From: Antedon mediterranea
Taxonomy: Eukaryota; Echinodermata; Crinoidea; Comatulida; Antedonidae
Direction: 5' to 3'
Length of the DNA stretch: 64,000 nucleotides
Assembly: GCF_964355755.1 (NCBI RefSeq)
Contig: NC_092670.1
Location: 21,823,201 to 21,887,200, forward strand
Shown here piece by piece: positions 15,123-63,251 of this stretch. A program made the translations under genes and the position numbers. Positions within the stretch are counted from its first letter, which is position 1, and each line of letters starts with the position of its first letter. The notes under the pieces were generated by a model, which had not been told where the DNA came from, made no database searches, and worked only from the letters and a program-made list of their open reading frames with translations.

Positions 15123-25770
<10,648 letters not shown>

Positions 25771-31402: not shown

Positions 31403-31913
31403 TCATTCTTTTTGCTGCTTTTTTTTCCTCTCTTGACGAAGGCGACGGATGGCAACCATAGCCGATTTCCATTCTTTAAAAGTCACATCAGATGTTGCAG
31501 CACAATACCAATTTCCATAGTACTGAGTGTGGTTCTTATTTAATCTTGGTTGCTTACACTTTGAGCACACAATCGCAGACGTTCTTGGTTTGTATATTTT
31601 GATCGGTTTCCCTTCCGATATGTCTTTAGCCACTCGTTTTCTGTACAAGAGGGTAGTTCTAGGAATACGAGTACTGCTAGCCTCAGGGACTGATGGTGGT
31701 GGTTTTGCTATCTCGCCAGGAACTGGGATCGACGGTCTGTTTCCTAGAGTCGCTAGGCCGGAAGTGTTTTTCGGTAGGACAAATGTGAAAGATGGAGCGC
31801 TTGTATGAACGTTTAGCACCGCTGGCTTGGTTAAAGGTTCAAGTTTGGGTATTGTTGCTGAGATGCCAGATTCCAACACTTGCCGCTCTTGCTTCTTTGA
31901 CGTTCTGTTGTAC
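31403..31913 (-). CDS. unknown gene, last exon
   Basis: 511 nt, acceptor TTTCAACAG|GTAC, with a stop codon at the left end. Carries the CCHC-type motif and a basic C-terminal tail (RRLRQERKKKQQKE). Confidence 0.75.
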
Positions 31914-35500: not shown

Positions 35501-36815
35501 TTATTCGCCTCTGCATATGTTTATTATGCTATAGTAACCATTTATGTCAAATATGGTTATGATAGCACAACTGACATGCGCATGAGAACCCATTATTCAA
35601 CTCTGTGCATGTTTATTATGCAATAGTAACCATTTACGTCAAAAAATAAAACGGTTGAAAATTGGCCATGTTTCGAAAATTTCCCTAGTACAGGGATTTT
35701 TTTTTTAAATGGCCAATTTTCGACCTTTTTATTTTTCGATAAAACTGGTTACTATAGCACAATTGACATGCGCAGAACCCATTATTCGCCTCTGCATATG
35801 TTTATTATGCTATAGTAACCATTTATGTCAAAAAAAAGGGTCGAAAATCGGCCATTTTTCGAAAATGTTCATGTACCGGTACTGTAGTACAGGGATTTGT
35901 CCAAAAATGGCAAATTTTCGACCTTTTTATTTTTCGATAAAACTGGTTACTATAGCACAATTGACATGCGCAGAACCCATTATTCGCCTCTGCGCATGTT
36001 TATTATGCTATAGTAACCATTTCTGTCAAATATGGTTATGATAGCACAACTGACATGCGCAGAACCCATTATTCAACTCTACGCATGTTTATTATGCAAT
36101 AGTTACCATTTATGTCAAAAAATAAAAGGGTCGAAAATCGGCCATTTTACGAAAATTTCCCTGTACTATAGTACAGGGATTTTTCAAAAAATGGCCAATT
36201 TTCGACCTTTTTATTTTTTGATAAAACTGGTTACTATAGCACAATTGACATGCGCAGAATCCATTATTCGACTCTGCGCATGTTTATTATGCAATAGTAA
36301 CCATTTCTGTCAAATATGGTTATGATAGCACAACTGACATGCGCAGAACCCATTATTCAACTCTGCGCATGTTTATTATGCAATAGCAACCATTTTACGA
36401 AAATTTCCCTGTACTATAGTACTGTCAGGGATTTTTCAAAAAATGGCAAATTTTCGACCTTTTTATTTTTCGATAAAACTGGTTACTATAGCACAATTGA
36501 CATGCGCAGAACCCATTATTCGCCTCTGCGCTTGTTTATTATGCTATAGTAACCATTTATGTCAAATATGGTTATGATAGCACAACTGAAATGCGCATAA
36601 CCCATTATTCAACTCTGTGCATATTTATTATGCAATAGTAACCATTTATATCAAAAAATAAAAGGGTCGAAAATCGGCCATTTTTCGAAAATTTCCCTTT
36701 ACAGGGATTTTTCAAAAAATGGCAAATTTCGACCTTTTTATTTTTCGATAAAACTGGTTACTATAGCACAATTGACATGCGCAGAATCCATTATTCGACT
36801 CTGCGCATGTTTATT
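32519..36815. repeat. hairpin satellite, two alternating palindromic modules
   Basis: About 15 copies of an A/T-rich palindromic module (AAAATAAAAGGGTCGAAAAT ... CCCTGTACTATAGTACAGGG ... and its inverse) alternate with ~72-bp hairpins built on GTTACTATAGCA...TGACATGCGCAGA / TCTGCGCATG...TGCTATAGTAAC. The order and number of hairpins vary between modules. Short open frames here merely reflect repetition. Confidence 0.93.
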
Positions 36816-38333: not shown

Positions 38334-38503
38334 TTAGCAAGCGCTTTCATCAATATCTTTCTTTACTGTTTTACGCGCTTGTAGTCGTTCAAAACGGAAG
38401 TTCTCGTAGTGTATGCTATGTGTAACTTCCTTTAAGTCTTGCAGGTGAGTGCGGATTAACATGTCACGAAGGTCGGGAAACTCGCAGTGATGCCGATTTT
38501 CAA
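38334..38503 (-). CDS. SEPTIN3/9/12: septin gene exon 10 (last coding exon)
   Basis: 170 nt, acceptor CTTTTTAG|TTGAA, stop TAA at 38336-38334. It encodes [20 protein letters not shown] and [16 protein letters not shown], then a short Lys-rich tail without the coiled coil of SEPTIN2/6/7 classes. Confidence 0.96.
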
Positions 38504-41500: not shown

Positions 41501-44500
41501 GATCACAATTGATAATGATGACAATGATAATGATGACGACAAGTGATGATCACAATGATAATGACAATGGGGATGATCACAATGATAATGACAATGGGGA
41601 TGATCCCAATGATAGTGAAAACAGTGATAACAATGATGATGACAATGGTGATGATCACAATTGATAATGATGACAATGCTGATGATGACAATGATAATGA
41701 CAAGTGATGATCACAATGATAATGACAATGGTGATATCACAATGATAATGACAATAGTGATGACAATGGTGATGAAAATGATGACAATGGTGATTAAAAT
41801 GGCAATGGTGATGATCACAATAATAATGATCACAATGGTATGATCACAATGATGATAACAATGGTGGTGATAACAATGGTGGTGATCACAATGATGATAA
41901 CAATGACTTGGCTGTTAAGCATTATATTTTACTATTTTGAGCATGGAGTTACTACTAACAACCAAGCTTCCATTAGTTAATGTTAATTAATGTTTACTAT
42001 ACTTAAAGAATGAAAAAAGATTTTCTGTTAAGCACAAAGGTTTCCGAATGAAATACACTAAATAGTAAGTACATGTTGGACTATATTTATACAATAACTC
42101 ACCTTCAATTAGTCCCCAGTTTGTTTTTCTACCAAGCACTTCCTTGCCTTCAACTTTATGTGCCTTGTCACTGCCAACTACAGCAAACGGCATTTTTTCC
42201 TAAAAATTACAAACAGAATATAAAATATTTTATACAGCAGGTAAAGTATACAAAAACAATATAAATAGGGGTTACAGTAATCATTTAATATGTTTAGCTA
42301 TTCATATATTGCCACTGGTACGTTTCATGAGAAAGAGTCCTCTTAATAGGGGTTCTTCTATACCCAAATACTTGCATACTATTACAGGTAGTGATTGTTG
42401 TTCTTACTCTGAGGGCAGCATTAATGGCCGAGTCTTCTGCATCTACATCCAGGTCCTTCATTGGGTAAGTGCTTACTTTCTCAGAATTCAATTCATCTCT
42501 TATCTATATAAAAAAAATTCATTTTTATTATCTTCAAAGAATCAATCTTGCGTAATGTCATGCACACAAAACATGTCATCCAACATCCAACGGAGGAGGA
42601 AATGCATCTTTGTACAGAGAGGTCTTTAAAGATGTATTGTCCCCAAAAATCATGAAAAATAAAGATTTTTAAAATCGGACTTTGAATAGGCCATTTTGCA
42701 GTTTTAATGAAGTTGTTCACTTCCATAAGAAAAAAAACGGGGGGAAAAAATTATTTCACCTATAAAAAGACTAAATAAACAGTTAAATTATCCAAAAACT
42801 AATTATTTTTTGCTTTAAATTACATTTTTCTCAGGTAAATAAAATTTTTTCAGACCCAATTTTTTGTGAGAGTGAATAACTATTATGTGACATTAAAATA
42901 ACATATTCAACAAAAAAATTTTTTAAAATATTTTTTTTAGGGGGACAATATATCTTTAATTAGTAATGTATGTTTTATGATGTATGTATTGTGTTTCCAA
43001 AAAGAAAATACAGTAAACCTCTGTCTACACTATCAAACTTTATGTGCCAAAAAACATGTGATGTGCCCATATATGGACTAGTTTGATACTGTGGACAGAG
43101 CTTTAAGTTCAGTATGACTTTGGTTGTTGCTAGAAAGAGGAGTAATGTAGAAACAGAAACATACAAATATAGGTGTAATATTTTGCAACCTAAAGGCCAA
43201 TTTACACAGAAGAGCAGTAATGGTAAAAAAATATAGAATCTATGTTATTCTTTATGACCATTTACACACAACGTGGAGCGGACAGGCGGGTGGGTTCTTT
43301 CCGCCCAGGACAGATACAGATTTTATGTGGGAGAAGCTATGCGGTTTTCCGCTTACCGTTAAAGTTCGTCTGTGTAAACTTGCCTTTACTCTATATTACA
43401 TTAAATATTAAGGTTTAATTTGTTGTATTTATTGATGTGTTTTATCTATTTACCCTTTTCTTAAACGCATCCCTTTCCTCAACAGTGAGTGTGTCTGACT
43501 TTGCTATCACTGGTACAATGTTTACTATCTTGTCAAGTCGTTTCATAAACTCTACGTCCAATGGTTTCAAACTGAAATGATAAAGTAAACAAGTCACATA
43601 AAAGGTGAAAAACAAATGGACAACATTTAAAATTTTAATTAAGATGCTAAGAGATTAAAAAATGTTTAATTACTTTGTTAATCTTCAGTGTGTAGGCCTA
43701 AGCTGAGTCGGGCCTACAGCTTTGTGCCTTTCAATTGATTTTGAATTTATTAGGAAAATCATCATAAACAATATACAAAGCTTATAACATAAATAGCTGA
43801 CATCACAAATAAATACATTTATAAAAGATTTTCCAGGATAGCCCAAAAAGCTTATTATTTATTTCCATTGGGATCCTATAGTTATACTTTTCTTGTATCC
43901 TTTATTTAAACATTATGTAAACATTTATTGGAACATATTTCATTATTTATCATCTTCTTTATTAACAATATTATTAACTAACATAATTTAATTCATTCTG
44001 CACACATTCTGCAGTAACTGCAGTAATTATTCACCTGTGACCTGTGGGTGCAATGAAGTAGAGACAACAATGTACTCTGGTGTCTGGAATGTGTTTCTTT
44101 CGACTTGTGTTAATTTCTTCTGACAAATATTTCTCATATTGATCGTTAATGTATTCTATTATGGGCAACCAACTATAGAAAAAAAAGTGATTTCATTATT
44201 AAAACATCATAATTAAATTAAATAAAATATTATGCATATGTTCTTTCAAGAGGGAAGTATAGACAAAGGATTAGGTTCAGGAACAAAAAAGTCTTACTTA
44301 CTCTTTATACGATAATAATCTATGAATATTCATTAATGGCCATAATGACACCTATCTACTATGAATAGGGTGTCTCTGTATATAGGCATATCCATTTAAT
44401 TTAGATTCTCTTCACCTTTGTTTATTGATACAGATACAGATTCATTTATTGTCCAAAATAATAATGGAAATTACAGTGCTCATAAACCTTGGCTTGCCTA

Positions 44501-47500
44501 AAATAAATATAACGGGGACTATCTAACAAATGTTTTGTTATAATGCCTTATCCCAGCTGGGTAGTACTTGTAACGGTCCGTCTGCGCATTCACCGTCCTC
44601 ATCCTACCACTTCTAACGATAACGGAGCCGATAATGTCCTTATGAAGAGGATGGTTGGTGTCTTCCAATATAGTATGGAACACATCGGCAAGACGTCGCT
44701 GTAGAAAGAGTCGAGCGTTTGCACAGACGAACCAATTACTTTCCCCGCTCTACCCAGCACCTTTTCAATTCGGTCTTTATCCCCTTTACTGATATTCCCA
44801 GCCCAGCCCAACATACAATAACCCCAAATAGATAACATCACTGCTGATGAGTAAAACATTTTACAAATATCCAGCTTTACTCCAAACGAACCGAGTTTCC
44901 TCAGGCAGTACAGCCTTGTATTTAACTTGGTCAACATGATCCCCCCATTTAAGCTTACAGTCAAATACTACTCCCAGGTACTTATAATTATTAACAATCT
45001 CTATTTCCTTTCCTTTAATGTATACCGGGTCCATACTGTCAGACCTATTGTGTTTTCGAAAATCAATCCGCATTTCTTTCGTTTTATTTATGTTTAGTTC
45101 AAGAAAATTATTGCCACAGTAATCGGTGAATCGAATAACCTCAGTAGAAAGGTATAGAGAAGAATTGTTATTATTAATAAGTCCTACTATAGCCGAGTCG
45201 TCCGCAAATGTTATCATTGGACAACTCGGAGATACCGACCTAAAGTCTGAAGTGTACAGAGAAAATACCAATACGGTACCTTGTGGTGCCCCAGTACTAG
45301 TACGCACAGTATCGGAAAAAATATTATTCTGTAACTTAACAAACTGGCTACGTTCGACTAAAAAATTAAACACAAACGAAATTAAAACACTTGGAACATT
45401 CATATCAAATAATTTATGAACTAATATGTGTGGCTGAATTGTGTTAAATGCAGAACTATTGGCTACAATAATAGCTACTACAATAATGTATTGGTAACCA
45501 AATAGTCCTCAGATTTATTTATTACTTTTAAGAGAAATTTTTCTTGCTTAGGGACACCTAAATAGGTCTAATGTACAGATATTTCTATTTTAAAATATAT
45601 ATATATATATAATTTATTCACAAAATAATAACTCAAAGATTTCAACTACAGTCAGAAATATAACACACAAATTCAAAGCTTTAGTAGGATATTAATATGA
45701 AAGTTCATTAAAATAATTATGACTTCCCTGAGGTGGTAGGCATCTGTGGCTGCTAAAGGAAGCATGTAGTGGGCCTGACATACTGCCTCATGCCACATCC
45801 TGCCTAGGATAACACCCTATTTCCTACTGGGTCAGCGTAATGGCTTTCATGCTAATGTTTAGCATATCAAACTATGAAATATAGTTGTACAGTAGTTTTC
45901 ATATATTTATGAAGCTTGAAACTACAAAAAAATATTTGGTTTCAATCGGTTTTTTATGAGAATGAAAAAAATGAATAAATAAGACAATTTTCTGGTGATG
46001 AAACGTAACCATGAAAGTGTTAATTACCATTGATAAAAACAGTAATGATAATAATAATGATGTGAGGGAGAGATGATGTGGATGAAAACAAATGACTACA
46101 AAACCTATTGACAAATTATCTACCGAAAAAACTATTTTAAATAAATTGTTAAAAAGTTTATTGAACTAGTATAAATCTCCAACATCAAGTGGATTGTAGT
46201 AGAAGCTTCATATAGTCATCTTAAGTTACTTGTAGTAAGAGGGTCAGAAGGGTAAGCAATGCTCCTGGCATCCTCTGCCACTTGATACCAAGTGCTCACT
46301 TAACTCAGTACTTAAGTACTGTAGTTACCAGGTGTCAAAAATCTAGGCCTAGAAAATTATACATGGCTACATACATTGAACTAGAGTAAGTTAACCCTTT
46401 CAAGCGGAAGAGATTAAACTAGGTATTTCAAATTAGCTAGGGAAATTAGGAAGTAAAACATGTGCTTATCTAGTGCTCTTATCTGTGCTAATCTTACTAG
46501 ATTATAGACAAAGATAAATATACATGTATATAGATAAAGTGGGAGATTCATAAGAAAAGGCCTATTAATGAGATGGGCATTTTCGACTGGGTTCTTTTAA
46601 GCAGATATCAGCAGATGTAGCTCCTCAAAATCATAGCTGTTATGTGAGCACTGCAAGTAGATTACTGCAAAGTATTTGCGAGTGACCAGTCTAATACGTC
46701 TATTGTTAACCCAAGTTACTCAAAAGATGTCTTAAACCCAGGGTGGGCTTAAAACTGCATGAGTATGTTATACTTACCAGTTTTCATTATTAATATGATC
46801 ACCAAATCCTGGGGTATCCGTGACTGTTAACTTCAACCTCACACCTTTCTCTTCAATTACTATAAAAAAGATTAAAAGAAAAAAATATATACTTAAATAG
46901 TAGTATCAATAGTATATTGAAACCACAAGATTGATTAAAAAGACACTTTTAATACAAACATTACATTTCACTTTAGCTGTGCATAAATATGTACCAACTT
47001 GTATGGATGAGTGTGCAATGAACAGAGGGTTTGTTATACTGTGTATTCTGACCAAGTGGTAACACATTTATTGTTATTTACCTATACATAGAAGAAATCT
47101 GCTTGCATATTTTTACCCATTACTAACAAAACCCCTGCTATGCCCTTGACTTAATGCTAAACAAAAGAAACCAAGTGAAAGACGACAGTAAATATAATAC
47201 AAGTTTTAAACCACTTCCTTTTGCTGTAACATTTACTTTTAACGAAATACAGGTGTTTTTTAATTCTTCTCCTAGATAAATATTCCCAGGTATACTAATA
47301 CAAGTACAACAGTGTTCTTACATCCTGCTACTGTAGATCACACCCTTTCCTTTTATTTTATTCATTTTTTGTTTTTTTCACTACCTTACATTACAAACAG
47401 TACTTTTTCTTACCATGACTTATAGCTTTAACCTCTACAGTTTTTGGAATGATAGGTTCTTTATTGGTTTCTGGTAAACATGAACGTCTAGCGATTTTGG

Positions 47501-50500
47501 CTTTAAAAAGTGTGTTCACTAATGTAGATTTACCAAGACCACTGGCACCTGCGAATAAAACAAAAACATTTTTAATTTGTAAGAGTTTCCTAATAACCAT
47601 TTTCAACAAGACCCAAATCCCAGTGCATCTTTTTTACTATGGTAGTCTCACCGCAATGTATGTATACCTACCAAAGCAGTTTGAACTGATTTTTTAGATA
47701 ACCCGGTTTGAATCTATATCTAATCTTTCTTTTGTGAATTTTTTACCCAATTACTCATACTTTGATAACGTTTTTTTATATGAAACAACGCCAGAGGTCT
47801 GTGACCTGGAACAGTCAAACGTGAAGATCAGGGAAGCGTGCGTACAGTAATAAAACTACAGTTGTTATTGTATGAAAAAGAAGGTTAATAATACACCCTA
47901 AAATTAAATGTACAATATTCATAACCGAAAGAAAGTGCAATGGTTGGGAAACTTTTCATTGTATTTATAAACAGATAAATTGCTTGAAATACAATCAAAA
48001 TGATAGAAACTAATCTATTCAAAAGTTGTTGAGGTTCAATCGTGTTCAGGTTGTCAGGATTAGTTAATAGAAAATAAAAAAAGTCATGTCAGTATTTGGG
48101 ATGCAGTATTAGGACTTGCCGACGCCTACATTGTAATTGTTCTTACAATCTATTATTAGATTAGATAGAAGGAAAATCTTTGATTAATTAAAGTTGGTGA
48201 AACTTTAGGTTTCTTTAAGCTTCTATTGGCCACTAGGGTTTTACTGGAGCTTTTCTTGGAATAAGGCTGAATCAAACGAATTAATTCCATGAAAATTTTA
48301 ATTTAGTTGAATGATACAGCACATTTGGTAAATCTGATGTAGCCTTTGTGACCCAATTTGAGTATGACTCTGTGTCTAATATTGACTTCCAACCGTATAG
48401 TAGCACAACTACAACTAGCATGATGCTTGTAGCTTCTGATATCCTCAAGAACCAACAAATTGTCCCTTTAAGAGGGGTTGGATGTAGTGTTAAAATACAT
48501 CGTCATCTCACGGAAAGGTGTCCCCTTAATAGAGGCGTCTAAAAAGGGGCTCTCAGTAAATAGGTTTTAATTGGGTTTCAAGCGTTTGTTTAACACTGCA
48601 AATTAGGGTATAATAACCGTAACATCTTCAACATACTACAAACTATTATTACTTACCAACCATCATAATATTAAACTCAAATCCTCGTTTCAGTGCCTTG
48701 CGTCTGATCTGTTCTTGAATTGTATCGATTCCTACGTAGCCAGTTACTTCTGTCTTGAGGGCGCCCCATTCTGTTGTCTGAGCCATCGTCTCTGACATGA
48801 TTGTTACAAAATCAACAAATTTCAAATCCCCTGCAAATATATAAATAATATCATAATTTATAATGGGCTGTACAGTAGGTACAGAAGGCAAGAAGATTGT
48901 GGTAAGGAAAAAGAGATGAAACCTCAACCACAGCATCTTGGGGCAAAGGGCAACACTTCAACACTTTATTCACGATTTCTGAAAGGTTTAATAGTGTACA
49001 GTTGCTTTAATAACAGGATACATATTAATGGTGCATCCATATTTACAGTAAAAAAATATTATGATTTAATATAAAAAAAAAATTATTAAAGATGTATTGT
49101 CTCCCAAAAACATGAAAAATGAAAATTAATAAAAAAAAAAAGTTGTTGGCCTAGGAGTAGGCCATTTTGAAGTTTTAATAAAAAGGTTATTATTTCTGTA
49201 GCAAAAAAGAAAAAGACCCTAAAATAGTTGAATTCAGTTTTTTCAGTAAAATAATTTTTTTCTTTGATCCCATATTTGGTCAAAGTGAATAACTATTATA
49301 AAAATATTTTTTCAGGGGACAATATATCTTTAAAAAGGGAATGTTTTCATTTACCTTTACACAATAAATACAGTAGGGAATATTATTTATTATCTATACC
49401 TATGTTTCCTGTGACATAATATTTTTGTTTTTTTCAAGGCAAAATTTCAATTGGTGGAAATTTCAAAGGTACAAATGGAAATGGAAAGTCATTATGGAAA
49501 GCAATACAGTGTCATGTGATAATATAAACTTTTGAGAACAATAGGAATACTTGGAAATGATGATGTTCAACAACGCATGAATTATACATATGGACAAATA
49601 TTTACAATTTGTAGGTCACTTCGATCCCACTTAGGCTTAAAAAGTGTAATGCTTTGTTTTAACATAGAGGAAATAAATCTATCTATAAACCTTACCAGGA
49701 CCAACATTAGTTGTTTTGCTCAGTAGGCAAAAGCTAAACAATATTTTTCAAGCTAAAGCTCTATCTACACTATCAAACTATGCGACAAAACACATGTGAT
49801 GTGCCCTATGCGACAGATGTCATATCACTACCAAATTTGGGTGCATTGCTACCATATTTGGGCACATCACACTTTTTGTGACATATACTTTAATAGTGTA
49901 AATAAAGTAATTTTGTGATATGATGAACATTGCTAAATGAAAGAAAGCTGCACTTAACAAAAAAACATTTTTCTGCACTTTAAACTCACCCGCCTTTAAA
50001 AATATTTTAAGGTTTAAAAAAATTTGAACACCACACAAAATGAAAGTATAATAAAGTTAGAATGTTTATGTTATGTGCCGAAAAAGGGGTGAAGTTACTC
50101 TTTGCTGAACTATTAACCCTAATATTGCCTTAAGTCACAATATACTCATCCCTGGATAACATGACTTGTAAGAACCTGTACTAATTATGTGAGATTTAGC
50201 AGCAAATTCCATGTAACATAATATGCTAATCATAAAATGTGTTGCTAGCCGCTCATTGCCACAGGCAACTAGAAATTGAGAAATTCTACAAATTCATATT
50301 TGCAACTATGATGACCAGAAAATTAAAATACCATTAGAATTACCTATTGATCATTATAAAATGTAATCTTAAAAGCAAACTCTCCAGACTGGACATCAAT
50401 GACCAGTCCAAGGGTGTCCAGTTTATAAAGTTCACTGTACTATGATCAAATGGCATTCTGTAATTTCATAATATTATTTTAGCATACAGGTGTTTGTAGA

Positions 50501-53500
50501 AAAATCCAAGTGTGGGTGGCAGTTTGAAAATACTGTAGAATTTGGATTTATGTATGGAGCGGCAAACATGACAAACTGTAATGTAACTTCTATTAGTAGG
50601 CATGTTAAGGAGCATATTTTAGGCAAATCCTTCAAATTGTGATAACATTTTGAAACTTTGCACAGTTATTCATTAGGGTGTCAAAAATATGAAATGGAAG
50701 GGTTGCACAAAATTTGGTCAGGGGAAAGCCGCCATTTTGGATTTCAAAATGGCGCACCTCAAATTTTCACTTGTCAGGTATATCTCTGCTAAAGAGGCAC
50801 CTTGAGTTCTGATTTTACCTGCAAAATATATGGTAGCGGGGTCACCAAACATATTGGTATAATTAACATTTGATTGCATGGCGGCCATGTTGGATTTCAA
50901 AATGGCGGATTTCAAATTTTCACTTTTCAGGTATATCTCTGCTAAAAAGGCACCTAGAATTCTGATTTTAGGTGCAAATTATAATTATGGTAATGGGGTC
51001 ACCAAACATATTGGTATAACTAACATTTTGATTGCATGGCGGCCATGTTGGATTTTAAAATGGCGGACTCCAATAACTTTTCAGGTATATCTCTGCTAAA
51101 AAGGTACACAGTGCTCTGATTTTAGGTGCAAATTATGTGGTAATGGGTCACCAAATATATTGCTATTTAACTAACATTTTGATTGCATGGCCAAAATGTT
51201 TCAGTACGGTGCCTACAGTTATAATTTTAGGTACAAAGTATAATATGGTATTGAGGTCAACAAACATATTGGTATAACGTCTTTGATTGCATGGCGGCCA
51301 TTTTGAATGTAGCTCAAACCTGGTAACCACACAGCTCTGTACATCATAAATCACTCTTTCTGCATTTACAGCGTCCAAGATCACAGTCGGTGTGTCACAG
51401 CGATTTGTGACATCTGAAAGTTCCGGCAATAAACTCCAAACTGGACTAAATTTGTTGCCGTCCTTCCTTCATCCCCAGTTTGCTGGTTCCTGTTCAACCC
51501 TGAATGCATCTAGACAGTTGTACCACTTTCTGGCTTGTAGAAAAGACTGTTTCACATGTTCTCTTAATGCCGCAGATGTTGGGGGGATATTTTCAATAGT
51601 CTGTAGTAAAAAGATATCGTCTTGCATCATTTACCTTCTTTCTACATAGTTACAACAAACTGTTCTAGATAATCTGTGTCACTAACATCCCCTACAGACA
51701 ATGACATCGTCTCAAATTCCTTTCCTTGAACAGATGAAGTTGTATCACAACTGCTAAAGGAATGAAAGAACAAGTAAGCGGCTGATGCTTGTGATCCAAG
51801 AGAAGTAATCTTGTGTATTGAGATATACTTCAAGTGCTTCCCCACTCCAAACTCGATCCAAAGCTCGTGGATGCCAGGTATTCTGTGGAAAGTTGACAAT
51901 GAAATAACAACAACATCACTGTCTACAGTCTTGACAAGAATGCACGGACAAATTTTAGCGGCATGTTTAACATGAACAAACATACGTTCATCTGCCTCTT
52001 CTATGTTACATGGCATCAGCGGTTTTATATTTACAGACTGGTTTGTTACAGCTCTGTCTCTCAGAGACCCTACAAACATTCCGTGATTTGTGTCAATGTT
52101 CTCTACTACTTCAGTTACAATTAATGAAACAACTCTGATTTGTTGTCATCATATCTCGAATATGTGGTCCAATTGTTGGGCATGCTCCCACTGGCTTTGA
52201 CGCCCTCCTTACACCAGAGCCGCGATTTGAACGCGTACTAGACTTTAAACCGTCGTTAGAGTATTTATCGAAAACCAAATCTGGTCACGTCACTGATCGA
52301 AGTTGATGGTCTATATATGGTTGTACGACAAAATGAAGCACCATTAGTTGCTGCCAAGGTGTTAGATGGACCAGCAATAATCAATATGCTCAGGCCCAAT
52401 GATTCGAAGACATTCATTGAGTATATATCAAGTAGCATACAACCATCAACTTCGATCAGTGACACGACTAGATTTGTTTTTCGATAGATACTTTAACGAC
52501 AGTTTAAAGTCTGGTACGCGTTCAAACCGCGTCTCTGGTGTAAGGAGGGTCGTTAAAGCCAGCGGGAGCTTGCCCAACAATTGGACCACATTTTTTAGAT
52601 TTGATGACAACAAATCAGAGTTGTTTTCATAACTGAAGTAGTAGAGAACATTGGCACAAATCACGGAATGTTTGTAGGGTCTTTGGGAGACAGAGCTGTA
52701 ACAAACCAGTAAATATACAATCGCTGATGCCATGTAACATAGAAGAGGCAGATGAACGTATGTTTGTTCACGTTAAACTTGCCGCTGAAATTTTCCACGC
52801 ATTGTCAAGACTGTACACAGTGATGTTGTTGTCAGCTTTCCACAGAATACCTGGCATCCACGAGCTTCGGATCGAGTTTGGAGTGGGGAAGCACTTGAAG
52901 TACATCCCAATACACGAGATTGCTTCTTCTCTTGGATCACAAGCATCAGCCGCTTACTTGTTCTTTCATACCATTAGCGGTTGTGATAGAACTTCATCTG
53001 TTTAAGGAAAAGGTAAAGCTACATTTAACGAGACTTTGAAAAAGATGCCATGTATGAATCCAGTTTTTGAGAGGATGTCATTGTCTGTAGGGCATGTTAG
53101 TGAAACAGACACAGATTATCTAGAACAGTTTGTTGTAACTATGTCTACTGCAGAACATTTAATGATGCAAGACGATATCTTTTTACAACAAGAGAAAGAC
53201 TATTGAAAATATCCCCCAACATCTGCGGCATTAAGAGAACATGTGAAACGGAAGCCAGGAAGTGGTACGACTGTCTAGATGCATTCAGGGTTGAACAGGA
53301 CCCAGCGAACTGGGGATAGAGGAAGGACGGCAACAAATTTTGTCTAGCTTGGAGTTCATTGCCGGAACTTTCAGATGTCACAAAGGTTTTAATTCGCTGT
53401 GGACACACCGACTGTGATCTTGGATGCTGTAAATGCAGAAAGAGTGATTTACGATTCACAGAGCTGTGTGGTTGCCAGGGAAAATGTGACCTGCAATAAG

Positions 53501-56500
53501 TGTCCGTGTTAAATGCATGTAATTATGAACATAAACAAATAGTGTAAAGCCAGTACGGGTTGAGCTACATTCAAAATGGCCGCCATGCAATCAAAGACGT
53601 TATACCAATATGTTTGTTGACCTCAATACTATATTATACTTTGTACCTAAAATTATAACTGTAGGTACCGTACTGAAACATTTTGAGTTCGCCATTTTGA
53701 AATTCAAAATGGCCGCCATGCAATAAAAATGTCAGTTAAATACCAATATGTTTGGTTACCCATTACCATATAATTGGCACCTAAAATCAGAACTCTGTGT
53801 ACCTTTTTAGCAGAGATACCTGAAAAGTGAAAATTTGAAGTCCGCCATTTTGAAATCCAAAATGGCCACCATGCAATCAAAATGTTAGTTATACCAATAT
53901 GTTTGGTGACCCCATTAACATATAATTTGCACCTAAAATCAGAACTCTAGGTGCCTTTTTAGCAGAGATATGCCTGAAAAATGAAAATTTGAAATCCGCC
54001 ATTTTAAAATCCAACATGGCCGCCACGAAATCAAAATGTTAGTTATACCAGTATGTTTGGTGACCCCGCTACCATATAATTTGCACCTAAAATCAGAACT
54101 CTAGGTGCCTCTTTAGCAGAGATATACCTAAAAAGTGAAAATTTGAAGTCCGCCATTTTGAAATCCAAAATGGCCGCCATGCAATTAAAATGTTAGTTAT
54201 ACCAATATCTTTGGTGACCCCATTACCATATAATTTGCACCTAAATTCAGAACTCTAGGTGCCTATTTAGCAGAGATATACCTGAAAAGTGAACAATTTG
54301 GGTCCGCCATTTTGAAATCCAAAATGGCGGCTTTCCCCTGACCAAATTTTGTGCAACCCTTCCATTTCATATTTTTGACACCCTAATGAATAACTGTGCA
54401 AAGTTTCAGAATGTTATCACAATTTGAAGGATTGGGTCACTTAACAGGCCTACTATATTAGGTAAGGTAAAATAAGTTAAAATATACTGTACATTCATGA
54501 ATACTGGCCAGAGTTTCTTATATCCACATGATACTACTATGCATCAATCCTGAACTTCAAGTATGGCTTAATATATCCACATCATTAAAGCAATACTGCC
54601 CTGTCAAATTCACAGATTTTGTTCAGACTTCTTATTTTTATGATAATGATATGTAATCTGTGAAATTCTTGCGAGTATTGAATCAATTATCCGAGCCTTC
54701 ATGAGTCATAATGAATCCCTTTGGTTTGATCTAGCTTGACAAGTTAAACGAGGGGTATTTGCTACACTTAGTATTCACTTTCATATTTCATTGCCCATGG
54801 CACTAACTTCTTTAGTTGCATTTCAATTATTCTGTACTTGGGTATCACATTTGTAAGTAGTTAAAATAGCAATATGCCAACTGTTAGGTACTGTAGGCGT
54901 GTATGTGCATTTATATATGAAGATACAGTACGGTAGATCCTATATTAAGGAGACAGATTTGGAAACCAACGAAATCGTCCCATTAATAAATAGGGGTGTC
55001 CTTTGAACAGGGGTGGGCAGTAGTGTTAAAGAATATATTGTCTCTCATTCACGTCACACAAAAGGGTTCCCTTGATAGCCATGTCCTAAATGGTTTAATG
55101 TGATATTTTATTGTAAAACATAAGCTCAAATCAAATGCAGGTGTAGTTCTCAAATATAAGCCCATGCTGACACAAGTCTCCAGATCTACTACTCTGCCAA
55201 CAACAAATCACTGACAATTGATAACTGAACAAAAGAAAGTCAGGCATGAACGGTTTGCCGTGTAATTGATTCTGAACACTGGGAAAATGGGAAGAGCTTC
55301 ATATGGGATAATATGGATGAGAAAGGGTAAACAGAAATAGTTAGGCAGCTGACATAACATTAAATACAATGTTGCAAAATTATTGATTTATTAATTAATC
55401 CGCATCAATAAACATTATGATTTAATTAACTGATTATCATCATAATAATAATAAAGAAACCTATACTATGATTTGAGATAGGCTTCTTTTCAAGATTACT
55501 TTTGTAAAACACAGGCTAATTTTATACCTCCATGTACAGAGGGCTTCTTTTCAAGGTGGGCTTCTTTTCGAGGTTGGCTTCTTTTCGAGGTTGGCTTCTT
55601 TTCGAGGTGGGTTTCTTTTCGAGGTGGGCTTCTTTTCAAGGTAGGCTTCTTTTCGAGTTTGTATAGAGTTGATGTGAAAAACAACATTGTAATAATCCAA
55701 AATAGTAATAGTAGTACTAAAAAGTACAAACACAGCTTCGTTAATTGTCATTGTCCTCATCTGTGACAATCATCACACAAGTGACTCACTTAACACACAC
55801 ATGTGCTCAACTCACGCAACAAATTTCCACATCCTTGTCTCTCAATAAGTACTGTACACACAGTCATGATATGAGTAAACTTGTATCAATGCTTGTATCA
55901 ATGGCTATCTGTTATGTAGCTTCACAAACACTTCTAATAGTAAATCTTAGAAAACCCTAATTTTTTATGAAACAAAGTGGTTTTATTACCGACTACCTCC
56001 AATTAAGGACCACTATAATTATAGTATTATTACTATAATTAATATAATCAATTCTGTTCTGGACCATCTAATTGAGGTACCGGTATTCTAAATCACTGGA
56101 AAACAATTAATACCAGCTTCAACTATTGGCCAGGAAGGCGTTTTTACCACCACAAAGTGATAATTCACAACTCTGTTTTATCTTAACCAGTCTGACAACA
56201 CATGATCATCAACAACACCACTAAACATTAGTTTAGCTTCCCTGCCTGCCATTTCAGAAGCCCAGTCTAAAAATGTCTTGCTTTACCTGTACAGTAATTC
56301 CGCTATGTCTAAACTCAATATGAACATCTGTTTCAGGCGAGTTAATAATAAATACTCATATTCAATTCTCACTAAATCCTTTTACAAGTAAATCTCAAGA
56401 TGTACTTGTGTTTGCAATGACAGATTCCTCAATTAAAATATGTGGATTAAGTCAGTCGGCAAATAAACTGTAAATAAGTATAAATATTTTAGGATATATT

Positions 56501-59500
56501 GAAAGTCATATGCCTGGTATTCCTATAAAACTATATTTGACATTCTCTCTTAGCTTTGGTTATAGTCGGCTCTCCCAACTTCAAATTCTTGAAAAAACTG
56601 GAAACTTTCCCTAAACAAGACTTCTTGATGTTCAAAAGGTCCAAATTATTTTTTTACACATTTGAAATACCAGAATTTCTGGAAAATGAAACCAATTAGA
56701 CTAGCCCTGGGTGTATTGGGAATTGACTATATTCTGCTGAAGTTAAACGATGAGGGATGCAAATACTATAGAAAAATCAGGATGAAGGGAAAGTTGAAAA
56801 AGAAAGAAAAAAAAAAAAGTATTTAAAACATTCAATATAATTTGGCCGTCTTTCTTCTCAACTACATCAAGTATGTTTATGCTCGAATACACTAAAAAAA
56901 AATGTTTTTTCCCATAGATAATTACAAAACATATCAAGAAACATTAGTTTCATTATTAGCTGAGTCACTTAAGGTTCTAAGGTTACAACCTTGTAATAAA
57001 CACAGTGTCATCAGTAGATAAATGAGATTCTTTGAAATGTCACCATAAGTGACATCTATTTAGCCATGACAATACTAATTGAATTACTGTATATACACTA
57101 GTAGTACTTTATCTCATCTTGAAGATTGACTTGGATTTTACAATCTAATCTATTTTTATAGATCTCTATATCCACGCTGATAATAATGCTGGTATTAGTT
57201 TTAAAGCACACAATGTAAAACCAGTGTTTGTTGGTGTTTTTCTTGACATTGGAACTTTGAGTAAACAACAGTTGGAAAACACAAAGTGGCTTAATAAATA
57301 CAGTACAATATGAAGTAACCAAGTTTTCTGCTGTTATTTTATTTGTTTATGCTCTACCTTGGTATTGAGCACTCTATCCTAACGGTCTGATAATTTCAAC
57401 CTAAATAAATATATATATATATATAAATAATGAAAAAAATATGGATGTAAATAATGTCAGACTAACTAGAGAATAAAACCACTTTTTTTGGTTTCTCACA
57501 CAAACATTTTGAATACAAAAGAATTACATACATAAATGAATGAATTAAAGTTAAACAATTTTTTAAATATCCCGTTCCAGTAGAAGTCGCTAACGTGACA
57601 TCACACAAACCATAAAGTAAACAAAATGTTCAACTTTAAAACAAAGGATGTGGTTATTTGTTAAAAGTTCAACACCATCAAACTTTCAATTAATTAAATA
57701 TTTAATATTAAAATATTCAAATTATGAAAATTAATATACAACTAAGACATTATTCACTGATGTGACACATTCAGTTTTTACTTTATACCTCAATGCACCT
57801 ACAGACCTACAAAATGATTCACATAATAATATTATATAAATCAATGACAAAATTATGTAGATATTGCTGTACATACATCACACATCTTCCCTATATTATA
57901 GCATTTTTTTTATTTATTTATTTTTTGCATACTGTATTTCAACATAAAATGACTTAATTATAAAGATACAAAATTGAAAGACTCACCAGTTAAGAGGATA
58001 CTGTAAAAACTATTCTCAGAAATCAGTCAGGGGTGTTGGCTTTAGAAACTGTATGGTAAAAAGTAGTACAACTTATACACAGCAGATGGAAACAGTCTGG
58101 CTAGCCAAGCCTTCTGGTGAATCACAAATCCACAGATATGACTGAATGCTTGAGTGAGCAGAGTCATGCATGATCGACTAATCATGGGCTAGTTCATTTA
58201 AAGAGTTATTACAAAGTGTGTCAAGAGAAATAAAAAAACTCCAGGTTCACATGGATCGTTAAAAAAAACACGATAAAAAACAAGAGAGAATTATAGTAAA
58301 AATCTTTTTAATGAAAAATTTATTTTAAATCGTGATTTTCAATTTTATGTGGCATGATTGAAGAGTTGCTGACACTTTACATAAATAATTTAGGACATTT
58401 AGCATCACAGGATTGGAATCTAGGACCATGGGAATGTATCGTACCGACCAAGCACTCCATGGATAGAAATGTACTTATTTGTACAAATAATCAATGTATA
58501 CGCACTGTAACAATACTATATTCAAATGACATGGTTTAGATCTTGGTTATACTAATATTACAGTAAAATAAGTGTCATTGTTAACTCTCTATTGACATTT
58601 AAAAAGATCCATTGGGAATGTTTTACTATGGCAACTTCATCACCCTGCATGACACAAGAGAGTAGATTTTTGCAAGTAGATTTATATTCATACATATTTC
58701 TATACTGTCAATTTAATATGTTTATGAAAGAAAAAAAAATCTGCTTTCTAGCTCAAATGTATTGTTATTTTATTTTCTCCCTATACATTTAGCTAAGCTT
58801 ACAGCATCAGCAATGTGTAGATTAATTTTTTATTTTTTTTTATTTATTTATTTTTTTTATTCACACTCATCCAACAGCGAGTAACTCGCCAATTACAGGA
58901 TGGATAAACTATTTAATAATTTATCGTGCTTATAAACTAAGTCTCATTTGAGGCTTAGGGAGTGGAGTTGAAAGAGTCATGAGTTACAATTAACAACAAA
59001 ATTACATACAACAAAATTCATACATTTCTAAGTCTATAGTAGAGTCAATTTGATATTATACAGTAACTGTTTATAGAAGAAAAAAGAATCTGTTTTCTAG
59101 CTCAAATGTACTGTTATTTTATTTTCTCTCGCTATACATTTAGCTAAGCCTACAGCGCATCAGTAATGTGTTTATACAAGCTTACAACTCAATCATTCAT
59201 CAATAAGACATGACTGCCTAGATGGTGTTGTTTCTACCCCCACAAACCACATCCCATCAGGCAAGGTTACAGGTGTTCTCATCTGGCTCAAGGGTCTTAC
59301 CACCAACAATATTGTTTATAATCACAATTTTAAAATGCTTCCTTATGGCCATCTCATCACCTAATCATAAATTTTAAACAACAACAACAAAATCGCAATC
59401 ACGATTCATAAAATCTTCCTTCTAGGAAATTCACACTGGATGGCAAAATGAAAGAAAAAAAAAATTCAATAATAAAGATTTTCCTTGTGTTTTGAGCAAG

Positions 59501-62500
59501 CTAATGGTTTTGGTATATTTTCCATCCCCACCATAATCCTCATGCAGTGATCTAAATGTTTACAAATCTTATATAGTTTACTTGAAATCAAATACCATTT
59601 CTAACTAAGGGACTTTGAAAGAATTATTGTACTGTACTTTTTCCCAAGGACATTGCTATAAATGTATACATATTTCAATGTGTAAATTTCACTTGTGATA
59701 AAAAAAAAGGTTGGCATTTAAACCAAAATATTGATTTAATAGACAAGAAACCAAGTGTTTCGATGCTGTATAAAAATGTATGTCAACTATATGTTCAGTA
59801 AAATAGACTCCTCCGGAACAGCTTCAAAATCCATTGACCTTTTTAAATTGTGCAAATTATCAATATTTAATGGAGCATTTGTAGTTGATTACATTTTAAT
59901 TCTTTAAGTGTTTCAATTGGTTTCCATTGAATGTCTCATTCTTTGAGGTTTTTATATTTCATTTCAACACATAACCTTTGAGGTTTTAAGATTTCCGGTT
60001 CATTCCTTAAATACCTTTTTAAAATTATTTTTTAATTATTTTAATTTAGCAACGGTAAATCAAAAAATTTAAATAATTTGTGTAAAGTGTCACCCTAACA
60101 GGGTGTCCTCCTGAATAAGGGTATTTAAAGAAGGAGTTCTGTAGAATTATAGTACAGTGGTAGTGTGTCTTCTCATACATGTATCTTGGGTGAACACATA
60201 GTAACTTGAGACGGTACTGCATTGTATTCAGGGGGAGTTTATATGATTCTGTTTCACACTTAAATATAGGGGATAACTCCAGTTCTAAGACCCATATGGT
60301 TTGAACAAGATTTTGAATTATACCTCTAGGAGTAGGAATTAGAAAATCCAGGAAGAGCCAGGCCAGCTAATATTAAGCAAAGTAGACAAGGAAGTGGTTG
60401 TTCCTGTTTTTAATTCATTTTAGGAAATATTAAATACTGCAGTAAATATATTGTAATCTTTAAGGAAAAGTGAGCATGTTGTTTTTAAATGAAATGCTCA
60501 GTAAAGAACATTCTTGTGATATCACCAGAGACCTGTAAAAAGCAGCATAGAGATTTGATGAAGATTATAGACTTTGTCTCGGCTTATAATAAATAGTTCC
60601 TTGGGTTTATTACATGACTGATAGGGACATTAATGTTACTGTACTTTGCTAAATAAAGCTCAATAAAAATGTACTTACCGTTCTTTCCGTTACGGTGTAC
60701 GTGAAAAGTGATATTATTATTGTCAAACGGAACCGGTTGAATACCGAGTAACTTGCGGACAAGCTGCGGTACAAGATTAACGTCAATAACACCTTTTTTT
60801 TCCTCGTCTGCCTCAAGAAACGATGCTTTCAGAACTGTTGGAGAAAACAAATATTACATCATTACCAAAAATTTAATCTTGAAAATTGTTAGTATTATCA
60901 GTTTTGTGCAAATGACATCTTTCTTTTCCAACTCGATCTAAATACCACAACGGCACCCTAAAAAATCACAGTACTATACCACAATGACATGTGGTTCACT
61001 ATTAGAGTAAGAAGATGTGAACACAGTACAGATAATACGATGAGCTGTTAAAAGAAATTAAATGAAGAATATAACTCATTGAAACTGACCATCTCTATGG
61101 ATTGATGCCTTTGTAAAACTCAAGTATGGTACAACAATACACAAGATACAAATGATACCAGCACAATGAAAGCAACTTGGTTATGATATCTAAAGTATTA
61201 ATAAATATGATTCATGCAGATAAACCACCTCCACACATAACCTTCTAATGTTATTCATCATTTGTGGTTTTCCAGAAACATGGTTTACTCAGCGAGAAGA
61301 AAACACAGTTATTATCATGTAATTCATATTTTATGAGTTTAATTTTGTTTGCCTCCAAGGACCTGGTTTTAAGTCTTGTGGTCTACCGATACAGATTTTG
61401 TGAACTTTGTTGTATCATTTTGACATTGAAATAATTGAATATAAATACACACTGGGGTAAATATCACAGGAATGATTTGTAAGCAATCATTTTAACAAAG
61501 AAAACGCATTTTAAACCAAGAGGTAAAATATCAATTAAGCCTACTAATATACTATGCCGCACAACATCAACATGGAGTAAGTCAGCCACTGTAGGCACGT
61601 AACTGCTGCACAACATCAACATGGAGTAAGTCAGCCACTGTAGGCACGTAATTGTTGCCGCACAACATCAACATGGAGGAAGTCAGCCACTGTAGGCATG
61701 TAACTGTTGCGTCAAAAAGTCGAGGAGCGTTTTTTGTAAGAAATATTTCTTGTTTTACTATGGATACTCCATAATAATTCTGAACTAAAAATTAAATGTA
61801 AAAAGTACTGTACATACAGTTAGTTATTAAACTAACCAATTTAGTATTGTCAATTAATAGTAACACACAGCTCAATAAGGAATATGGGTGATTCTAAATT
61901 ATCATTTAATTTTCATTCTACAATTAAGTGATACTTGTGATCAACTTTTAGTTTCAGAAATTTTATATATGGTGAAGTCAAGTAATAAGGGATAATGTTT
62001 TACTTCCTCAAAAAAAACGGAAATAAATAGTTTTACTTTATTGAGTTGAGAAGTTGAAGTGAGTCAGATTATGCATAGTAGGAAACTGAAATTAAGCACA
62101 AAAAAAAAATTATATTGAAAGTGGGTAAAAAGGCAACGCTGTCAATAATTTGATGTTTTGCCCAAGAATGCTGTAAGAATTAGGACTAACACACGACTTA
62201 GAGATCAGGTTTAAGTCTAACATTGCATAAATTAAAGCCTCGGTGCCTGCAAAGTTGAAATTGTGCTTCATTTATTGGGTTAAACATGAATAATGTTTAA
62301 TGCAAGTGTGGTATACAACATGAATTTAGCTGCAGAGCTTGAAGAAAAAACGAAATGCATCTTTAGTCTTCTATGGACAAGACAACCTTCCTCGTATGCA
62401 TAGATGTTCTCTTTGGACCTGTCAACCTCAAAAATCAAAACACTGCAGCAAGGATGCTGCTTATGAAGTGTAAGCATTGGCGCATTAATTTAAATCATGT

Positions 62501-63251
62501 ATTCTGGTACAAAAAAATATATATTTTCAAAATAATGCATAGAAGAGATGTTTAAAATGGAAATTGGGTTTTTAATATTTGATTGTAACCTATTTACTAC
62601 ACTCAAACTATTTTTAATTTCAAAGGTACTAGGACTTGAAGTTTTGCCCAAAATTCTTTTGGAATTAAGGCGAACACACGACTTGGGGATCAAATTAAAT
62701 CTAACATGGTTTACGGAAAAAGGATAGGAATATTATTTCATTATGTTTTGAATCACGTTCTTCACAGAATCAGTTTTACTTCAACATGAACCTACATGTA
62801 TATTTTTTTTAATTCATGATTTATAATCAGTTGAATGTTGCACTAATGGAGTCAAAATCGCTTTTAAATACCAAATTTAACATCTATACAATACATCAAT
62901 CAATTTAGATAGCAAATCCATTAATTTATATAATGTATGACAGCTTTTACACAACTTGATTTGCTAATAATAAGTAAATTGTGTAAATGTAAAATATTTA
63001 AACAACTTTATTAAAACTTACAGTGGTGTACTATACTATAGGTAGTAAAATAAGTGACTACTAGGTAACTCCCAACAAATTCTTATTCTAATTGTAAAAG
63101 AGATACAACCGAGGTTGAGGGGAACACCTTAGGGGATCATTGGGGAAGTGGAGGGAAAGAAACACTACACCACCTTTGTTTTTTAAACACATCATCTTGA
63201 CATACCCTGATCACTGTGGTGTGTTGGGATGCTGCCGCCAGTTGATGGCAT
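38334..63251 (-). CDS. SEPTIN3/9/12: septin of the SEPTIN3/9/12 class with N-terminal EF-hand pair, ten exons
   Basis: GTP-binding filament protein of the cortical cytoskeleton. Minus-strand exons: 63251-63206, 60834-60679, 48830-48657, 47548-47414, 46859-46778, 44172-44035, 43571-43454, 42503-42408, 42199-42103, 38503-38334; 1212 nt, 403 aa plus stop, all phases consistent. Septin motifs: GYVGIDTI (about 98), P-loop GASGLGKS at 126-133, DTPGFG at 185-190, [16 protein letters not shown] at 267-270 (usually AKAD), [15 protein letters not shown] and [16 protein letters not shown] short basic C-terminus without coiled coil, and MPFAVVGSD, place it in the SEPTIN3 group. Unusual: residues 17-80 form two EF-hand-like helix-loop-helix units (loops about 25-36 and 63-74), the second split by the intron before the septin-bearing exon. 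The septin part is certain. The EF-hand junction is strongly supported by phase and motif, the first exon less so. Confidence 0.93.
38541..38643. repeat. GATAATGATGACAATG-type microsatellite, left part
   Basis: Degenerate trinucleotide-rich repeat. It continues on the other side of the 2-kb element at 38644-40634. Confidence 0.8.
38644..40634. mobile_element. 2.0-kb TA-flanked element inserted in a microsatellite
   Basis: Inverted ends GGTATCCCAACGAAA and (inverted) GGTATCCCAATGAAA are flanked by TA on both sides (38642-38643, 40635-40636). Both flanks are the same GATAATGACAATG microsatellite, so the element split a pre-existing array. No transposase frame was recognised; it is likely non-autonomous Tc1/mariner-type. 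Confidence 0.75.
40637..41908. repeat. GACAATGATAATGAT microsatellite field
   Basis: A near-perfect tract of the 15-bp period GATAATGATGACAAT (about 40660-40790) is followed, after a unique patch at 40920-41105, by a degenerate field to about 41908. Lies in septin intron 9. All open frames here are products of the repeat. Confidence 0.93.
42103..42199 (-). CDS. SEPTIN3/9/12: septin gene exon 9
   Basis: 97 nt, acceptor ATTTTTAG|GAAAA and donor TTGAAG|GTGAGT. It encodes [20 protein letters not shown] and [10 protein letters not shown]. Confidence 0.95.
42408..42503 (-). CDS. SEPTIN3/9/12: septin gene exon 8
   Basis: 32 codons, phase 0 at both ends, acceptor TATATAG|ATAAG and donor CTCAGA|GTAAGA. 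It encodes [20 protein letters not shown] and an acidic segment, the variable region before PFAVVGSD. Confidence 0.92.
42631..42955. mobile_element. MITE, TTAA type, family M2
   Basis: Begins AGATGTATTGTCCCC and ends GGGGACAATATATCT, with TTAA on both sides (42627-42630, 42956-42959). A sister copy lies at 49090-49329. TTAA targets suggest mobilisation by a piggyBac or Kolobok transposase (inference). Confidence 0.82.
43016..43103. mobile_element. MITE, TA-flanked, family M1
   Basis: Termini AACCTCTGTCTACACTATC and GATACTGTGGACAGAGCTT with TA outside. At 88 bp it is the shortest copy in the window. Confidence 0.78.
43191..43388. mobile_element. 198-bp MITE
   Basis: The left end TAAAGGCCAATTTACACAGA pairs with the right end, whose inverse reads TAAAGGCAAGTTTACACAGA. 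The interior is GC-richer than its flanks. Lies in septin intron 7. Confidence 0.7.
43454..43571 (-). CDS. SEPTIN3/9/12: septin gene exon 7, G4 motif
   Basis: 118 nt, acceptor CATTTCAG|TTTG and donor AAAGG|GTAAAT. It encodes [12 protein letters not shown] and [18 protein letters not shown] with the guanine-specificity motif AKSD. Confidence 0.95.
44035..44172 (-). CDS. SEPTIN3/9/12: septin gene exon 6
   Basis: 138 nt, acceptor TTCTATAG|TTGG and donor CACAG|GTGAAT. It encodes [16 protein letters not shown] and [17 protein letters not shown], conserved septin core. Confidence 0.94.
44425..45470 (-). pseudogene. 5'-truncated CR1/L2/Rex1-like LINE reverse transcriptase
   Basis: Minus-strand frames carry reverse transcriptase blocks: [36 protein letters not shown] (catalytic FADD) and [11 protein letters not shown], then the C-terminal region [20 protein letters not shown]. 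The frame shifts near 44930, and the segment after PQGTVL looks damaged, so it is a dead copy. The 3' end has TGAATCTGTATCTGTATC-type repeats, as in CR1/L2-like elements. It lies in septin intron 5 in the same orientation. Confidence 0.85.
45471..46777. other. septin intron 5, remainder
   Basis: AT-rich intron with an (AT)n run near 45595. No gene or clear element was recognised. Confidence 0.6.
46778..46859 (-). CDS. SEPTIN3/9/12: septin gene exon 5, G3 motif
   Basis: 82 nt, acceptor TTTTATAG|TAATT and donor AACTG|GTAAGT. It encodes [20 protein letters not shown] followed by HINNEN. The usual Ile before DTPG is Thr here. Confidence 0.94.
47414..47548 (-). CDS. SEPTIN3/9/12: septin gene exon 4, P-loop
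   Basis: 135 nt, acceptor TTCGCAG|GTGCC and donor CATG|GTAAGA. It contains the Walker A motif (G)[17 protein letters not shown] and [11 protein letters not shown]. Confidence 0.96.
48657..48830 (-). CDS. SEPTIN3/9/12: septin gene exon 3, EF-hand to septin junction
   Basis: 174 nt, acceptor ATTTGCAG|GGGAT and donor GGTTG|GTAAGT. It starts inside the second EF-hand loop ([12 protein letters not shown]), continues with [18 protein letters not shown] and enters the septin domain at [20 protein letters not shown]. Internal Met residues could serve a short septin-only isoform. Confidence 0.95.
49090..49329. mobile_element. MITE, TTAA type, family M2
   Basis: Begins AGATGTATTGTCTCCC and ends GGGGACAATATATCT, with TTAA at 49086-49089 and 49330-49333. 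Shares the GGCCATTTTG(A/C)AGTTTTAAT block with the copy at 42631. Confidence 0.82.
49756..49906. mobile_element. MITE, TA-flanked, family M1
   Basis: Left end AAGCTCTATCTACACTATC, right end decayed (AATAGTGTAAATAAAG). The interior has the CCAAATTTGGG / ACCATATTTGGGC motifs of the copy at 3421. Confidence 0.65.
51330..52079 (-). pseudogene. degraded PIN/XPG-like element ORF, left arm
   Basis: Encodes [46 protein letters not shown] and [17 protein letters not shown]. The pattern EEADxR...TVDxDVVV...GxGKH...FHxxxGCDT belongs to a widespread invertebrate and fish repeat protein that I recall as PIN/XPG-nuclease-like; its function is not established. This copy lacks a segment present in the right arm ([20 protein letters not shown]). 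Confidence 0.7.
52308..53500 (+). pseudogene. degraded PIN/XPG-like element ORF, spacer and right arm
   Basis: The plus-strand spacer encodes [20 protein letters not shown] and [15 protein letters not shown]. After frame breaks come [64 protein letters not shown], and a Cys-rich end ([16 protein letters not shown]). The stops and shifts mark it as non-functional. Confidence 0.7.
54457..60678. other. septin intron 2, right part
   Basis: AT-rich intron with a 17-bp minisatellite at 55541-55659, a duplicated ~95-bp block (58725-58820 and 59080-59170), an (AT)n run near 57413 and a poly-T/A stretch near 58830. No additional exon was recognised on either strand. Confidence 0.6.
55541..55659. repeat. 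17-bp minisatellite, seven copies
   Basis: Seven units of GGGCTTCTTTTC(A/G)AGGT without indels, with an isolated partial copy near 55480. Because 17 is not a multiple of three, the minus-strand frame reads a cycling [17 protein letters not shown] pattern. This is not a gene. Confidence 0.92.
60679..60834 (-). CDS. SEPTIN3/9/12: septin gene exon 2, EF-hand exon
   Basis: 156 nt, acceptor CTCCAACAG|TTCTG and donor AACG|GTAAGT. It encodes [18 protein letters not shown]...LVRKLLGI, an EF-hand helix-loop-helix with loop [12 protein letters not shown] (Gly6, Ile8 and Asp9 conserved, position 12 Leu). The second unit begins [10 protein letters not shown] and is completed by the next exon ([12 protein letters not shown]). 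Confidence 0.82.
61560..61710. repeat. three tandem ~49-52-bp repeats
   Basis: CACAACATCAACATGGAG(T/G)A starts at 61560, 61609 and 61661, each followed by AAGTCAGCCACTGTAGGCA. Lies in septin intron 1. Confidence 0.9.
63206..63251 (-). CDS. SEPTIN3/9/12: septin gene exon 1, start codon
   Basis: ACCATGC start context, 15 codons ([15 protein letters not shown]) plus one base, donor CAGG|GTATGT. Its last G joins TT of the next exon to give Val in frame. Short and low-complexity, so the call rests on the start codon, donor and phase only. The true start may lie outside the window. Confidence 0.5.

Follow-up and report, generated by a model that had tools for sequence, protein, structure and literature searches.

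The window, by which we mean the whole 64-kb stretch of DNA analysed, carries on its minus strand a septin gene of 10 exons (Table 1). When that strand was read and the exons were joined by script, all borders were GT-AG and a single open frame of 403 amino acids resulted, running from the start codon at 63251 to a stop codon that ends at 38334. Residues 16-83 make up an EF-hand pair, interrupted by an 11.8-kb intron, and are followed by a septin of the SEPT3/9/12 type (residues 101-388). The initial annotation had placed exons at 63251-63206, 60834-60679 and 48830-48657; these places are borne out by consensus splice sites, by seven further exons and by the open frame, and the spliced translation gives the joined exon 2/exon 3 sequence just as it was first described. 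Exon 2 is bordered by cag/TT and AACG/gtaagt and exon 3 by gcag/GGGATTTG and GTTG/gtaagt, in both cases consensus splice sites.

Table 1. Exons of the septin gene and the near-tandem repeat at the exon 2 donor (window positions).
Feature	Position	Strand	Description
Exon 1	63206..63251	-	46 nt; start codon and short linker; phase 1 end; donor G/gtatgt
Exon 2	60679..60834	-	156 nt; phase 1 at both ends; residues 16-68; EF-hand 1 and first half of EF-hand 2
9-nt near-tandem at exon 2 donor	60674..60691	-	AACGGAAAG AACGGTAAG, 8/9 alike
Exon 3	48657..48830	-	174 nt; end of EF-hand 2, linker, septin alpha0, first strand
Exon 4	47414..47548	-	septin P-loop GASGLGKST
Exon 5	46778..46859	-	septin DTPGFGD
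Exon 6	44035..44172	-	septin G domain
Exon 7	43454..43571	-	septin AKSD motif
Exon 8	42408..42503	-	septin G domain
Exon 9	42103..42199	-	start of the region that we take to be the septin unique element
Exon 10	38334..38503	-	end of septin domain, short tail, stop TAA

The three N-terminal exons were scored for codon usage with a measure trained on 1,161 codons, septin codons only. Exon 2 scored +16.3 in its own frame versus -10.7 and -33.9 in the other two, and open 153-nt stretches taken from the introns reach this value in 2.7% of cases. The 36 nt of exon 3 that belong to the EF-hand part carry no coding signal themselves (score 0.0, equalled or exceeded in 24% of intron placements of this length that stay open). 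Of all the exons in the model, exon 1 is the one of which we are least sure: it is the closest to exon 2 of three ATG-to-phase-1-donor candidates in about 12 kb, and 8.3% of intron placements score as high, which at such a length is no clear signal. An in-frame stop lies two codons upstream of its start.

Several introns of the gene contain repeats or traces of mobile elements. The EF-hand/septin intron includes, at 50731-54328, two arrays of 153-154-base repeats, apparently mutual reverse complements, which flank similar ORFs on opposite strands (51642-52145, minus; 52637-53005, plus). This region is probably an inverted mobile-element pair; Pfam gave no match for the one ORF of the two that was scanned. 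Another septin intron holds a reverse-transcriptase fragment at 44861-45508 on the minus strand (Pfam RVT_1, 35.5 bits), a mobile-element remnant, and the last one a ATGATGACAATGATAATGATC-like minisatellite at 40636-41905, in several arrays with units of 12-39 bases.

Elsewhere in the window, exons that encode an FHA domain (16589-17068) and the beginning of a forkhead domain (23494-23910) lie on the same strand within 16589-25770 (plus), presumably parts of a FOXK-type gene. An ORF at 14163-15155 (minus) encodes a membrane segment and two C1 domains and resembles the beginning of a diacylglycerol kinase epsilon. A further ORF (31403-31927, minus; 174 aa) has a CxxC pair (CSKCKQPRLNKNHTQYYGNWYC) and a basic tail, with no Pfam match. 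There are also about 4 kb of nested tandem repeats at 32520-36655 (unit lengths 89, 178-200 and up to 479 bases) and a 36-base tandem array of about 10 copies at 20799-21168 that has one open frame on each strand.

The septin core

The Pfam Septin model matched residues 116-394 with 376.2 bits (cut-off 26.2), and the P-loop, DTPGFGD and AKSD motifs are all present in the model. The top PDB match was SEPT3 (E 4.5e-131). Chains of SEPT3, SEPT9 and SEPT12 scored 391.6 to 440.5 bits versus 327.5 for SEPT7, the next human septin, and were ahead of SEPT7, SEPT2 and SEPT6 by at least 64 bits. By best similarity, the septin is a member of the SEPT3/9/12 group. Two marks of this group, as given in PMC8640212, are the replacement of the hook-loop phenylalanine by isoleucine and the absence of a C-terminal coiled coil. 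Both are found here: the hook loop reads GYVGI, and only about 15 residues follow the domain, the coiled coil being judged from this tail length only.

A search of the genome (354 Mb, 18 contigs) found four other septin loci, which by best PDB match are one SEPT6-type, one SEPT7-type and two SEPT2-type, one locus being assigned through a single exon. The gene linked to the EF-hand pair is the sole SEPT3/9/12-type gene among the five septin genes found.

EF-hand likeness of the N-terminus

With phmmer, residues 14-83 matched 23 PDB sequences at E <=10, of which 20 are EF-hand proteins by title or by what is known of the protein; the remaining three are YIII_M5_AII, YIII_M4_AII and a multicystatin (ranks 4, 13 and 21). 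The top E-value (3.5e-5, CaBP1) sums two lobes on one query stretch and so overstates the case, and the best single-stretch match was centrin-2, with E 0.019. None of Pfam's EF-hand models was reported for the N-terminus; the segment alone gave one match, AIF-1, with E 0.16. We therefore used three profiles of our own: a general one of 25 EF-hand lobes from the same genome, a calmodulin/CaBP one of five spliced genome lobes and four CaBP lobes taken from the PDB matches, and a genome-calmodulin-only one of the same five spliced lobes.

The joined segment scored 24.5 bits with the calmodulin/CaBP profile, a figure somewhat favoured by the choice of the CaBP lobes as top matches, and none of 20,000 shuffles scored as high (maximum 12.9). 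The other two profiles, which are free of such bias, gave 10.3 bits (general; 8/20,000 shuffles as high) and 11.5 bits (genome-calmodulin-only; 1/20,000). The calmodulin/CaBP profile matched across both hands, and the other two did so more weakly. Judged by these scores, the joined EF-hand pair is beyond chance. Each exon was also ranked by its ORF among the 2,074 ORFs of the window. Exons 2 and 3 came first and second with the calmodulin/CaBP profile, second and 80th with the general profile, where an unrelated ORF at 30521-30447 outscores the exon 2 ORF (8.4 vs 6.5 bits), and 322nd and first with the genome-calmodulin-only profile.

We also joined exon 2 to each AG between 60678 and 45000 that kept the frame open. 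Among these 322 open joins the acceptor at 48830 came first under all three profiles, with a small lead over the runner-up for the general profile (10.4 vs 9.8 bits) and larger ones for the calmodulin/CaBP (24.6 vs 16.0) and genome-calmodulin-only (11.6 vs 1.9) profiles; none of the 322 offered a better EF-hand completion of exon 2. The initial annotation had proposed that an EF-hand pair is fused in frame to a SEPT3/9/12-type septin, and these profile scores bear it out, as do, independently, the calmodulin-type intron places described below. In the profile search of the 403-aa model that had been suggested there, Pfam finds the septin and no EF-hand model; our calmodulin/CaBP profile does match the joined segment.

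A separate EF-hand gene directly upstream was discarded, as no septin-strand ORF in the 10-kb locus there exceeded 2.3 bits with the general profile. The lobe matched only its own exons 2 and 3 when a paralogue was looked for in the genome. At the eight loci around the four other septin genes, whose true first exons were not located, the top septin-strand ORF (L038, 8856-8653) reached 6.8 bits with the general profile, about the score of the exon 2 ORF alone; it reads like an RNA-binding domain, which speaks weakly against the same lobe in other septins. The predicted structure of exon 2 alone, without the exon 3 part, has one helix and a mean pLDDT of 61.9 and is uninformative.

Intron positions

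A genome scan with Pfam EF-hand_7 listed 68 exon matches, from which we took 12 regions, mostly because the match stopped within the second loop, together with 20 lobes that are mostly single-exon. Six calmodulin-type exons were found in this set (L006, L007, L008, L010, L012 and L013), and the next exon was located for five of them; since L006, L012 and L013 are near-identical calmodulins, the six are not independent. All six open, directly after an AG and in phase 1, on the final two bases of the codon ahead of the F/L/M-x-x-x-F helix, and end with G/GT within the glycine of loop 2, again in phase 1.

The start of septin exon 2 (acag/TT CTG AAA GCA TCG TTT) is identical in codon and phase to that of all six. 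An AG at this place occurs in 7 of 31 EF-hand exons tested, namely the six and the centrin-like L009, where it sits inside coding sequence. It was found in none of the 15 usable single-exon lobes (L028, L029, L031, L036 and L037, the unusable ones of the 20, were left out) and is absent also from L011, L014 and L015; L017 was not placed. The 3' border of exon 2 likewise lies in phase 1 in a glycine codon of loop 2, as in the calmodulin-type exons, and is displaced: by alignment it falls in the glycine at loop position 6, not 4, about two codons on, with one inserted residue before it. The exon 2 donor lies in a near-tandem (Table 1), and a duplicated donor would, we infer, go far toward explaining both the loop insertion and the displaced intron. 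The profile support and the intron correspondence make it most likely that exon 2 is a calmodulin-type exon that became fused upstream of a SEPT3/9/12-type septin.

Loop residues

In loop 1 (D25-L36), positions 5 and 12 are occupied by K and L; in loop 2 (R63-D74 or H62-D74), R63 or H62 takes position 1 and D74 position 12. Both loops are thus without several of the usual ligands, just as the initial annotation had it. No calcium binding is expected for this reason, and we class the pair, as far as its residues indicate, as EF-hand-like by descent and not as a calcium-binding EF-hand. The same residues do not support the link between this septin and calcium sensing that had been suggested earlier, and we dropped calcium sensing as the lead reading. 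A lobe that binds a partner, also allowed for in the earlier account, would be the better reading.

Discussion

We think it probable that the product of this gene is a septin of the SEPT3/9/12 group in which a single lobe of two EF-hands, descended from calmodulin or a CaBP, forms the variable N-terminus, the lobe being likely calcium-independent and perhaps gripping a helix at the octamer centre. The main exon of the lobe would still be flanked by the phase-1 introns that calmodulin-type genes have, and the end of EF-hand 2 would have become joined onto the first core exon of the septin, the exon 2-exon 3 join presumably being present in its transcripts. The loss of the usual ligands from both loops would most likely have left the lobe indifferent to calcium. 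EF-hand lobes of myosin light chains and of apo-calmodulin bind amphipathic helices. From the end of the lobe's exit helix it is about 20 residues to alpha0, which bears the polybasic membrane-binding stretch. In canonical octamers, a SEPT3-group pair forms the central NC interface, according to PMC8640212. Because of this central pair and of the way light-chain and apo-calmodulin lobes bind, the lobe may grip an amphipathic helix at the octamer centre; this helix could belong to a partner protein or lie in the N-terminal region of the septin itself, some 20 residues off. The two lobes at the centre could recruit a partner or control the NC interface and the contact that it makes with the membrane. 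If the fusion is expressed, we hold a calcium-independent, helix-binding lobe at this position to be about an even prospect.

An alternative that we consider unlikely is that the EF-hand part is optional. A promoter inside the 11.8-kb intron would then drive most of the septin, translated from M79 or M83 (exon 3), and the fused form would be minor or tissue-specific. Exon 3 does have in-frame ATGs ahead of the septin core, and human SEPT9 has long first introns and many N-terminal isoforms (PMC8640212, for the isoform number). However, the 5' part of exon 3 encodes the missing half of an EF-hand, and there would be no reason for such a half to exist as untranslated sequence.

It is quite improbable that exon 2 is the relic of a decaying calmodulin-type gene that is gone from the mature septin mRNA. 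The degeneracy of both loops would fit this notion; against it, the frame of the exon is open, its splice sites are clean and its codon score is positive. Still less credible is a lobe that senses calcium and so renders septin assembly calcium-responsive; EF-hand ancestry and the residues N64, N67, D69 and D25, left as possible ligands, speak for it, whereas K and L at positions 5 and 12 of loop 1 and R or H at position 1 of loop 2 speak against it. That the EF-hand likeness is due to chance and the N-terminus an ordinary, disordered one would agree with the weak match of the general EF-hand profiles and with the lack of a Pfam report, but the shuffle controls, the join ranking and the shared intron place and phase leave this barely conceivable.

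The lobe derived from calmodulin or a CaBP, which we prefer to these alternatives, would be a folded EF-hand lobe at a septin N-terminus, that is, a new septin architecture, and a clear example of a cytoskeletal GTPase that has taken up a calmodulin-type exon. Septin N-termini are the least studied and mostly unstructured part of these proteins, and the long N-terminus of mammalian SEPT9 carries actin and microtubule motifs (PMC8640212); a helix-binding lobe would here occupy the place of those motifs and give a handle on what the central SEPT3-SEPT3 interface does. More tentatively, and in a version that we rather doubt, every SEPT3/9/12-type subunit would carry a calcium-blind, calmodulin-derived lobe, and the pair at the octamer centre would clamp a helix, be it from a motor, a membrane protein or the septin itself, and thereby set the site of filament assembly, making this a septin with a built-in light chain.

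A calmodulin-like half fused to a SEPT3/9/12-type septin appears, from its sequence, to be an unusual joining of a calcium-sensor fold to a filament protein. In the open-licence literature, protein databases being outside the scope of the search, no septin with EF-hands was named among the matches listed, and a term search found neither EF-hand nor calcium in two papers on septin evolution (PMC11238149 and PMC6323724). The architecture may already sit unremarked in annotation. The chain named septin-3 in PDB 9bhw, an entry that also holds a Ciona septin, begins at about the start of the septin core and may be a trimmed construct.

Other proteins also have a calmodulin-like domain fused to another domain, such as alpha-actinin and the trematode EF-hand/DLC calcium-binding proteins; among the matches listed, none has a septin as the partner. 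In its G domain, in the isoleucine of GYVGI and in a tail too short for a long coiled coil, the protein is like the septins of the SEPT3/SEPT9/SEPT12 group, whereas its N-domain, ahead of alpha0, encodes an EF-hand pair, unlike the largely unstructured N-domains described for septins (for both comparisons, PMC8640212). Compared with calmodulin and CaBP lobes (CaBP1, CaBP4 and the calmodulins of the same genome), the septin lobe is without the usual calcium ligands, has an insertion in loop 2, is single and is attached to a septin, yet it shares with them the pattern of a full-length helix-loop-helix pair and the phase-1 exon borders.
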